NCBI GenBank assembly: GCA_020860445.1
Contig: JAJBUH010000129.1
Location: forward strand, 1 to 32,135
Direction: 5' to 3'
Origin: Bacteroidales bacterium
GTDB taxonomy: Bacteria; Bacteroidota; Bacteroidia; Bacteroidales; Muribaculaceae
DNA: 32,135 bases
Shown: in pieces, positions 10,101-29,719 of the stretch
Position numbering within the stretch: the first letter of the stretch is position 1
Layout of the letters: each line of letters begins with the position of its first letter
Translations under genes and position numbers: made by a program
Notes under the pieces: model-generated
The model's input: the letters and a program-made list of their open reading frames with translations, nothing else
Told to the model about the DNA's origin: nothing
Databases searched by the model: none

Positions 10101-10161
10101 CTATGAGGGATGAAAAATCAAGGGTCATTTTTCATTTTTCATTATTCATTTTTCATTAGCC

Positions 10162-14493: not shown

Positions 14494-14522
14494 CAAAAAG
14501 TCAAAAGTCAAAAGTCAAAAGT
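14494..14522. repeat. Tandem CAAAAGT heptamer tract (about 4 units) in the rpoB-rpoC gap
   Basis: CAAAAAGT-CAAAAGT-CAAAAGT-CAAAAGT. Confidence 0.9.
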
Positions 14523-23717: not shown

Positions 23718-23812
23718 GACCATAAAGCCACAAGGACGTAAAGCCACAAGATTTCTTCTCTTTTCCTTTCCTCTATGTCCTTGTGGCTTTATGTCCTTGT
23801 GGCTTTATGGTC
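23718..23812. repeat. 33-bp inverted repeat whose arms are themselves tandem repeats (ATAAAGCCACAAGGAC)
   Basis: Arm 23718-23750 versus 23780-23812, 32/33 identical on reverse complement. Confidence 0.9.
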
Positions 23813-26896: not shown

Positions 26897-26953
26897 TCCG
26901 CTACTTATTACTAATTACTTGTTACTTATTACTTTTGACTTTTGACTTAATAT

Positions 26954-27424
26954 ATGTCTCAGCATACCCCTACCACTAAGGCTCCCCGCGTCGACGGAGC
27001 CAACATAGCAATCCTTAGCGCCGAATGGAACGGCCACATCAACCAGCGTATGGTCGACAGCGCCGCTGCCGCCCTCAAGGAGATGGGCGCCAAGCATCAG
27101 ATATTTTATGTGCCCGGAGCCGTAGAACTCACTTTCGGAGCTTCGCAGCTCATCGAGGCATCGGTGTTTGATGCCGTGATTGTATTCGGCACTGTGATTC
27201 GCGGCGGCACTCCCCACTTCGACTATGTGTGCCAGAGCGTGACCCAGGGCATCACCGCCCTCAATGCTGACTGCGACACACCGGTGATATTCGGTGTCCT
27301 CACCGTCGACAACGAGCAAGACGCCCTCGACCGCGCTGGCGGTCCCCACGGCGACAAAGGCCGCGAGTACGCCGAAGCCGCCCTCAAGATGATCGCCTTC
27401 CAGCGCCAAGTGCAAGAGCTGTGA
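26954..27424 (+). CDS. ribH: 6,7-dimethyl-8-ribityllumazine synthase
   Basis: 156 aa; AEWNGHINQRMVDSA, VPGAVELTFGASQLIE, VFGTVIRGGTPHFDYVC. Confidence 0.95.
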   Translation: MSQHTPTTKAPRVDGANIAILSAEWNGHINQRMVDSAAAALKEMGAKHQIFYVPGAVELTFGASQLIEASVFDAVIVFGTVIRGGTPHFDYVCQSVTQGITALNADCDTPVIFGVLTVDNEQDALDRAGGPHGDKGREYAEAALKMIAFQRQVQEL

Positions 27425-27507
27425 AATGAAAAATGAATAATGAAAAATGAAGAATGGCCCCGTTGAGAGCCATTTTTCATTTTTCATTATTCATTCTTCA
27501 TTCTTAG
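27424..27507. terminator. Long hairpin built from AATGAAAA-type repeats between convergent ribH and thioredoxin
   Basis: Arms of about 36 nt with about 4 mismatches around CCCGTTGAGA. Confidence 0.7.
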
Positions 27508-28352: not shown

Positions 28353-28426
28353 GGTCTGGTAGCTCAGCTGGATAGAGCAACAGCCTTCTAAGCTGTGGGT
28401 CCCGGGTTCGAATCCCGGCCGGATCA
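28353..28426 (+). tRNA. tRNA-Arg(TCT)
   Basis: GGTCTGG/CCGGATC acceptor, anticodon TCT, T-arm GGGTTCGAATCCC. Confidence 0.95.
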
Positions 28427-28433
28427 CAACCCC

Positions 28434-28463
28434 AAAAAGCCGCCCTCTCAGAGCGGCTTTTTT
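28434..28463 (+). terminator. Intrinsic terminator of tRNA-Arg
   Basis: AAAAAGCCGC-N9-GCGGCTTTTTT. Confidence 0.85.
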
Positions 28464-28535: not shown

Positions 28536-28700
28536 TTGTGCAATTGTTGTGCAACTTTTACCGGATGGTTGTGCAACTTTTACCGGATGGTTGTGCAACT
28601 TTTGCCAGATGGTTGTGCAACTTTTATAGGGTGGTTGTGCAACTTTTGTGCGACCCTTGTGCAACTTTTGTGCGACCCTTGTGCAACTTTTGTATCCCAA
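28536..28700. repeat. 22-bp tandem array, 7 perfect TTGTGCAACTTTT cores plus one degenerate copy
   Basis: Core starts: 28547, 28569, 28591, 28613, 28635, 28657, 28679 (all 22 bp apart); degenerate TTGTGCAAT at 28536 (11 bp before). The 9-bp spacers vary. Confidence 0.97.
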
Positions 28701-28701
28701 C

Positions 28702-28719
28702 TTTAGGTAAATACCTAAA
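28702..28719. repeat. 18-bp palindrome TTTAGGTA-AA-TACCTAAA
   Basis: Perfect 8-bp arms right after the 22-bp array. Confidence 0.9.
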
Positions 28720-28722
28720 CGA

Positions 28723-28761
28723 AAAACGCCAAACCACTGAAAATCAATGATTTGGCGTTTT
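28723..28761 (-). terminator. Terminator of tRNA-Val (bidirectional hairpin)
   Basis: AAAACGCCAAA/TTTGGCGTTTT perfect 11-bp stem; on the minus strand it extends to about 18 bp through two U-G pairs. Confidence 0.8.
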
Positions 28762-28767
28762 CATTCG

Positions 28768-28842
28768 TGATCTGCATTGGATTCGAACCAATGACCTCCT
28801 CCCTGTCAAGGAGGCGCTCTAAACCAACTGAGCTAGCAAATC
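28768..28842 (-). tRNA. tRNA-Val(GAC)
   Basis: GATTTGC/GCAGATC acceptor; anticodon loop TTGACAG. Confidence 0.93.
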
Positions 28843-28886: not shown

Positions 28887-28946
28887 ATTTTTTCCAATAA
28901 AAGATACGTTTTTTATTTGAATTCATAAAAAAGTATATTCCTTATG

Positions 28947-28975
28947 TTGGAATAGTCAAAAGTTTAGTACCTTTG
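28947..28975 (+). promoter_or_regulatory. Bacteroidetes-type promoter of the alpha/beta hydrolase (TTG / TACCTTTG)
   Basis: TTG at 28947-28949, TACCTTTG at 28968-28975. Confidence 0.65.
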
Positions 28976-29002
28976 TTGGTGTTTTGAGTTAGAAAATAAC
29001 CA

Positions 29003-29719
29003 ATGATGAAAGGAATTGTCATATTTATACATGGATTTGCCGAGGGGCCCAAAGTCTTTGGTGAGTTGCCTGCCTTAGTGAACAGCCAAGGTTGGGATAC
29101 ACAATTGCTGCTTCTGCCCGATCATGGAGGCACATGCCGAGATTTCTCCAAGACAGATGGCTCCAATTGGCTCGCTTATATTGATGAGGCCATTAGCAGA
29201 GCCTCAGTAGAATATGAATCTATAGTGCTGGTTGGCCATTCTATGGGAAGCCTGTTCTCAATTATATGTGCCAATAAATATACTAAGGTAAAGGCAATGG
29301 TGTTGATAAGCACTCCCTTGGCGGTGAGAGTGACCTTCAGAGCAATTCGCACCAATTTGACGGTCGGCTTGAAGAAAAATATCCCTCCAGACCACTTCGC
29401 TTACGCTGCCTCCCAAGCTCTGTCTGTCGCTCCGGGCAAACCCTGGGAATACATCGGCTGGCTTCCACGCCTCCAGGACCTCTTCCGTTACATCAAGCAG
29501 GCTCGTAAGGTTCTACCCAAAATACGCATCCCAATCCTCTGCTTCCACGGCGCCAAAGATGAACTCATAGGCTCCAAATCTATGCGCCTATTCAAGAGTC
29601 TCGCTCCCGATGCCGAAATCCATATTCTCCCTGGATCCTCTCACTTCACTTATCCTGCCTCCGACTTCAATGAAATAGAGACTACCATCAAAAAGACATT
29701 GAAAGAGCTTAAATCATGA
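29003..29719 (+). CDS. Alpha/beta hydrolase (carboxylesterase/lysophospholipase-like)
   Basis: 238 aa; IFIHGFAEGPKVFGEL, LVGHSMGSLFS, PILCFHGAKDELI, GSSHF. Confidence 0.88.
   Translation: MMKGIVIFIHGFAEGPKVFGELPALVNSQGWDTQLLLLPDHGGTCRDFSKTDGSNWLAYIDEAISRASVEYESIVLVGHSMGSLFSIICANKYTKVKAMVLISTPLAVRVTFRAIRTNLTVGLKKNIPPDHFAYAASQALSVAPGKPWEYIGWLPRLQDLFRYIKQARKVLPKIRIPILCFHGAKDELIGSKSMRLFKSLAPDAEIHILPGSSHFTYPASDFNEIETTIKKTLKELKS

Follow-up and report, generated by a model that had tools for sequence, protein, structure and literature searches.

The window analysed here, the whole stretch of 32,135 nucleotides, is chromosomal, with rpoB, tuf and the genes for ribosomal protein L1, a thioredoxin, a GH31 protein and an alpha/beta hydrolase recognised in it. 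On this Muribaculaceae chromosome, an array of short direct repeats occupies the gap between two convergent (head-on) tRNA genes, tRNA-Arg(tct) (28353..28427, plus strand) and tRNA-Val(gac) (28767..28842, minus strand), both detected by ARAGORN and Rfam and both pointing into the array. The hairpins AAAAAGCCGC..GCGGCTTTTTT (28434..28462, plus strand) and AAAACGCCAAA..TTTGGCGTTTT (28722..28762, minus strand) are predicted to be the terminators of tRNA-Arg and tRNA-Val, respectively, a label based on their folds and T-runs; a simple consensus terminator scan listed neither. The array appears to lie outside both tRNA transcription units and not to precede any gene, and no gene is directed away from it. 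No promoter-like site was found within the array; the only two, no more than chance would give, were at 28932-29022 of the minus strand; given this and the convergence of both tRNA genes on the array, a promoter role was rejected. Elsewhere, the window holds 7-bp tandem repeats (TCATTTT, AAAAGTC, TACTTAT, AAATGAA and CATTTTT, at 10125-10157, 14496-14522, 26902-26949, 27424-27456 and 27471-27502), mostly outside long ORFs. A dispersed 16-bp repeat, TATGTCCTTGTGGCTT / CATAAAACCGCAAGGA, was seen at 23774-23809 of the window and at L224:13347, L228:6448 and L233:12679, and a 10-bp CACAGATTTA repeat recurs in the same genome at L215, L216, L220 and L225.

Seven exact copies of the 13-bp core TTGTGCAACTTTT start at 28547, 28569, 28591, 28613, 28635, 28657 and 28679 on the plus strand, spanning 28547-28691 in steps of 22 bp with variable 9-bp spacers between them. 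A degenerate first core, TTGTGCAATTGTT (28536..28548, plus strand), lies 11 bp upstream of the first perfect one and has two mismatches to it. In 100 shuffles, 9 core matches were never reached (mean 0.95, largest 4). An earlier note on this DNA had described these seven cores and an eighth, degenerate one, and its list of spacers agrees in sequence with ours. It had also placed a GTTG-TG-CAAC dyad in most units, and this dyad is whole in five of seven, units 6 and 7 being preceded by C. The 18-bp palindrome that it reported after the array is present at 28702..28719 (TTTAGGTA-AA-TACCTAAA, that is, TTTAGGTAAATACCTAAA); it is imperfect, with two 8-bp arms around a central AA, and is not kept in the sister species described below. 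Tandem Repeats Finder (TRF) assigned periods of 22, 44, 66 and 11 to the array (28546-28693), the period of 11 covering its last part (28635-28693), in which the plainest 11-bp sub-repeat is TTGTGCGACCC TTGTGCAACTT TTGTGCGACCC (28646..28678, plus strand). Read in 11-mers, the array begins with TTGTGCAATTG and then has the constant TTGTGCAACTT at every second position, the 11-mers between its copies being TTACCGGATGG (twice), TTGCCAGATGG, TTATAGGGTGG, TTGTGCGACCC (twice) and TTGTATCCCAA. With alternate 11-mers constant, the array has a basic step of 11 bp and is better described as 11+11 bp units than as plain 22-mers. As in minisatellites, the units are head to tail, within the range of about 10-60 bp, and outside genes.

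The units differ in only 9 of their 22 positions: across the seven of them, all 13 core columns are invariant and all nine spacer columns are variable. A column-shuffle test of this contrast gave p = 2e-4, the floor of the test (exact value about 4e-5 by hand arithmetic), and none of 12 other indel-free arrays in a sample of the genome reached 0.01. The spacers seem to fall into two families, ..GGATGG and GTGCGACCC, which differ from each other at seven of nine positions between identical cores. When the difference between families was counted conservatively as one event and the last spacer as the edge of the array, about six events remained in nine contiguous positions, and the p value rose to about 0.07 (hand arithmetic). 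As the array was picked for its striking look, which bears on the reading of these p values, we regard the contrast between core and spacer as suggestive, not decisive.

The earlier note had proposed a search of related genomes at the same tRNA-Arg/tRNA-Val gap. Among 49 congeneric genomes, the gap was matched in the sister species only (Muribaculaceae bacterium Zag1, L098), and none of the other 47 has the array. The sister has two perfect cores at the shared site versus seven here. Its flank is 97% identical up to the second core, and its degenerate first core reads TAGTGCAATTGTT. After the second core, the sister has 29 bp of other sequence in place of the five further units, and the flanks realign from TTTTGT(A/C)TCCCA. 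The 29 bp hold CTATCCAGCTTTT at the next 22-bp position, identical to the core at 9 of 13 bases and possibly a decayed third core. Copy number at one locus thus varies between relatives, in this case between species. The comparison of two genomes would fit either growth here or shrinkage in the sister; we take growth as the working reading.

A genome-wide search for the core had likewise been proposed, and it revealed one array and one hairpin, and no regulon. Beyond the array, the 4.14-Mb genome has exact copies of the core solely in the two arms of a perfect hairpin, AAAAGTTGCACAATCCAAATTGGATTGTGCAACTTTT, a predicted guaA terminator between guaA and a 60-aa ORF followed by parA (L012:2520-2560, L013:60-100, L199:2680-2716). 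The hairpin was seen at the ends of contigs C9 and C252 and is a single locus judging by the sister species, in which it is nearly identical. A given 13-mer is expected to recur by chance about 0.12 times in 4.1 Mb, and the core in this hairpin is probably a chance occurrence, not a link to partition. Sites with one mismatch to the core numbered five more, as expected by chance. A regulon of the core was accordingly rejected.

Short tandem arrays are abundant in this genome. In 296 kb of stretches from other contigs, on which our census rests, TRF found 110 of them, with periods mostly of 7, 10, 12 and 14; the commonest was 7 (24 of 110), and 22 was not preferred. A second array with a constant core (CTACTTGGTGGTT) and variable spacers (7-9 bp, steps of 20-22 bp) was found at L220:2850-3070 (contig C25 of this genome, G000), between a convergent tryptophanase-like gene and AAA-ATPase-like gene. 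Its core has no exact copies elsewhere in the genome, and the array is missing in the sister species. Arrays of core plus variable spacer therefore arise in convergent gaps of this genome with unrelated cores, which favours a mutational habit over one dedicated protein.

Outside the genus, the tandem TTGTGCAAC array was absent from nearly all of 297 genomes of the family; together with 393 genomes of the order, these displayed neither a habit of tandem TTGTGCAAC nor a preference for 22 bp, and a family-wide element was rejected. Across 85,462 species genomes, TTGTGCAAC at 22-bp spacing was found in 59 stretches, largely from Bacteroidales, versus about 8 expected by hand arithmetic. Similar single arrays occur in L068 (GTTGTACGACTTTC..) and L097 (GTTGTGCAACTCTTGACCGGAG). 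Pairs in G083 and G137 were set aside as lying within coding sequence. Also rejected was G315/L050 (AACCCTCTGGCGAGGTTTGTGC, 22 bp, about 6 copies), whose hairpin unit is unrelated; by a rough estimate, the 9-mer that it shares is expected by chance among the many tandem arrays searched. Neither the 72,556 plasmids nor the 50,697 phages searched gave a match to the array, and a phage or plasmid origin was discarded. A literature search with the 9-mer and descriptive queries returned BrickBuilt as the only close parallel.

Arrays of the same register are numerous in some Prevotellaceae. Three metagenome-assembled genomes, G319 (RUG11392; L062, L066, L075, L086, L089, L107, L110, L116, L118 and L200-L204), G321 (RUG030; L210-L213) and G328 (UBA3294; L205-L209), contain 114, 41 and 65 TTGTGCA pairs, respectively, versus 0 for a reversed-pattern control; among the pairs listed, most are 22 bp apart and some 11 or 33. 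Their units read TTGTGCA-N7-TGCACA plus two bases, with conserved half-sites and variable spacers. Two more array-bearing genomes were found in a 121-genome sample of the family, in which most genomes have none. The control pattern itself turned up G766, with 267 pairs (L243-L254, core CAACRYGTTG). In 12 stretches of G766 chosen without regard to the motif, 62 AACRYGTT sites gave 57 distances of at most 100 bp, all of them 22, 44, 66 or 88, and the commonest array period was 22 (12 of 43); as G766 was picked via 22-bp control hits, these figures speak for a strict register in that genome, not for the frequency of such genomes. Arrays of 22 bp are present in G736 (L255-L257, core CAACACGTTGGGACACCTTGCA) and G800 (L258-L262, core TGCAYCGGGCGRTGCAGTGTTG). 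By crude gene calls, the Prevotellaceae arrays are intergenic or lie over short doubtful ORFs only, and rarely in divergent gaps. No published description of them was found in the papers searched.

From its anatomy, location, copy-number difference and rarity, and from the array richness of the genome, we infer that the array is a lineage-restricted intergenic minisatellite that grew in place and has no dedicated replication or partition role, a reading that we hold with about even confidence and rank first. As the array is restricted to this species and, in shorter form, to its sister, a repeat that grew locally is the most likely reading, ahead of a site for replication or partition. The common ancestor with the sister would have carried a short array, with two or more 13-bp cores besides a degenerate 11-mer, and growth to seven cores here, 22 bp (11+11) at a time, may have been due to unequal recombination or slippage. 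The array could grow because the gap between the terminators of the convergent tRNA genes is apparently untranscribed and would tolerate changes in length. Identical cores would then reflect recent growth of two 22-mers (with spacers ..GGATGG and GTGCGACCC), the core serving as the homology used for unequal exchange. This reading is favoured by seven cores versus two in the sister, by the absence of the array from the rest of the genus and by the abundance of locus-specific arrays. The confinement of other copies of the core to hairpin arms, the chance level of its one-mismatch copies, and the flanking genes that converge and end before the array also count for it. The contrast between core and spacer columns, the difference between the two spacer families, which is beyond simple drift of a duplicated 22-mer, and the strict 22-bp arrays spread over some Prevotellaceae genomes count against it. 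The earlier note had offered a minisatellite with a conserved core as its alternative, and this now fits best. The array would be a tidy example of the origin of intergenic minisatellites where genes converge in a Muribaculaceae genome rich in repeats.

The main rival, less probable though still a serious contender, is that the near-palindromic core GTTGTGCAAC is recognised, on one helix face at every second turn, by a protein that dimerises or forms filaments, while the spacers drift freely; where the two tRNA transcription units collide, such an array might serve, for instance, as an insulator or roadblock, or as a site of the nucleoid or of supercoil handling. Invariant cores beside fully variable spacers, the exact register, the near-palindromic form of the core in five of seven units and the single similar arrays in L068 and L097 are what such binding would leave, and other Bacteroidales cores (CAACRYGTTG, TTGTGCA/TGCACA) are phased strictly by 22 bp at many loci with variable spacers. 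However, the protein would have a single array in this genome, the other 47 congeneric genomes have none and the sister has at most 2-3 units; the different core of the L220 array means that one protein cannot account for both, no candidate binding protein was found, and order-wide pairs of TTGTGCAA have no preference for 22 bp. The cooperative regulator proposed in the earlier note is weakened by the inward-pointing genes and the lack of a core regulon, although the strong contrast between core and spacer and the similar Prevotellaceae arrays still speak for it.

A broader form of the idea, which we consider doubtful, would see the window array as an outpost, of one locus only, of a class of chromosomal arrays that spans the Bacteroidales, with inverted-repeat cores, strict 22-bp register and free spacers. 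These mostly intergenic arrays would have species-specific cores, bound by a protein family whose specificity drifts alongside them, and would possibly organise the chromosome or insulate gene ends. The minisatellite is ranked above it since the window array lacks both the many loci and the inverted half-site and since order-wide pairs of TTGTGCAA do not favour 22 bp.

It seems quite improbable that the phased T-tracts (CTTTT per 22 bp) form a curved segment that buffers the collision of tRNA transcription, with sequence mattering through shape only. TTTT does recur at exact 22-bp steps, and in the sister a CTTTT keeps to the register even at the position where the core has gone, but the T-tract is no more strictly kept than TTGTGCAAC, whose conservation would not be needed for shape alone, and convergent tRNA genes elsewhere lack such a segment. 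Equally improbable is that the array is transcribed as a structured RNA or belongs to REP/BIME-like palindromic repeats. Folding of the gap was stronger than that of its shuffled versions (z = -5.5); however, the two hairpins at its sides and base-pairing of imperfect repeats with one another are part of this fold, the two-base centre of the dyad permits no hairpin within one unit, and no Rfam family reaches threshold for the gap, so that known RNA families were dismissed. REPs, which one source describes as palindromes of 20-40 bp (PMC3733652), and BIMEs are dispersed in high copy, whereas the core is not dispersed in this genome. Least probable of all, and the lead guess of the earlier note, are replication iterons or a centromere-like partition site, which the helically phased 11/22-bp repeats resemble in form but which are disfavoured by the chromosomal housekeeping surroundings, by a scan of 14 window proteins in which no family of replication or partition proteins was found, by the plasmid and phage searches, by the lack of conservation in the genus and by the palindromic, chance-level nature of the 13-mer upstream of parA, just after guaA.

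Among known systems, plasmid iterons and ParR/parC centromeres share with the array direct repeats in helical register (11/22 bp), two 11-bp repeats being the minimum for ParR of R1 (PMC9426499). Unlike these, the array is not conserved, is on no plasmid replicon and has no cognate gene nearby, neither an adjacent Rep gene nor the parM and parR of a type II centromere, both of its neighbours being tRNA genes. BrickBuilt of Porphyromonas gingivalis, an intergenic 23-nt tandem repeat with gain and loss of units between strains (PMC4596501), likewise places short tandem units between the genes of a member of the Bacteroidales. It is free of spacers, has about 19 copies per genome and sits in a MITE with a leader, a tail and inverted repeats at its ends (PMC4596501), whereas the array has spacers and forms one locus with neither leader nor tail, no inverted ends found, and flanks conserved in the sister alone. 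Intergenic bacterial minisatellites (VNTR loci) resemble the array in their tandem units between genes, in a copy number that differs between relatives and in their locus-specific sequence; the array differs from them in that only the spacer half of its unit varies. The arrays of the six Prevotellaceae genomes (G319, G321, G328, G766, G736 and G800) have the same strict 22-bp register, inverted-repeat cores, variable spacers and largely intergenic position, but other cores and many loci of the same core per genome, in contrast to the one locus here, which is without an inverted TGCACA half-site. Should the window core prove to be protein-bound, it would be linked to these genome-wide 22-bp arrays, which are of more interest than the window array itself and, with many phased sites per genome and species-specific cores, provide a testable case.
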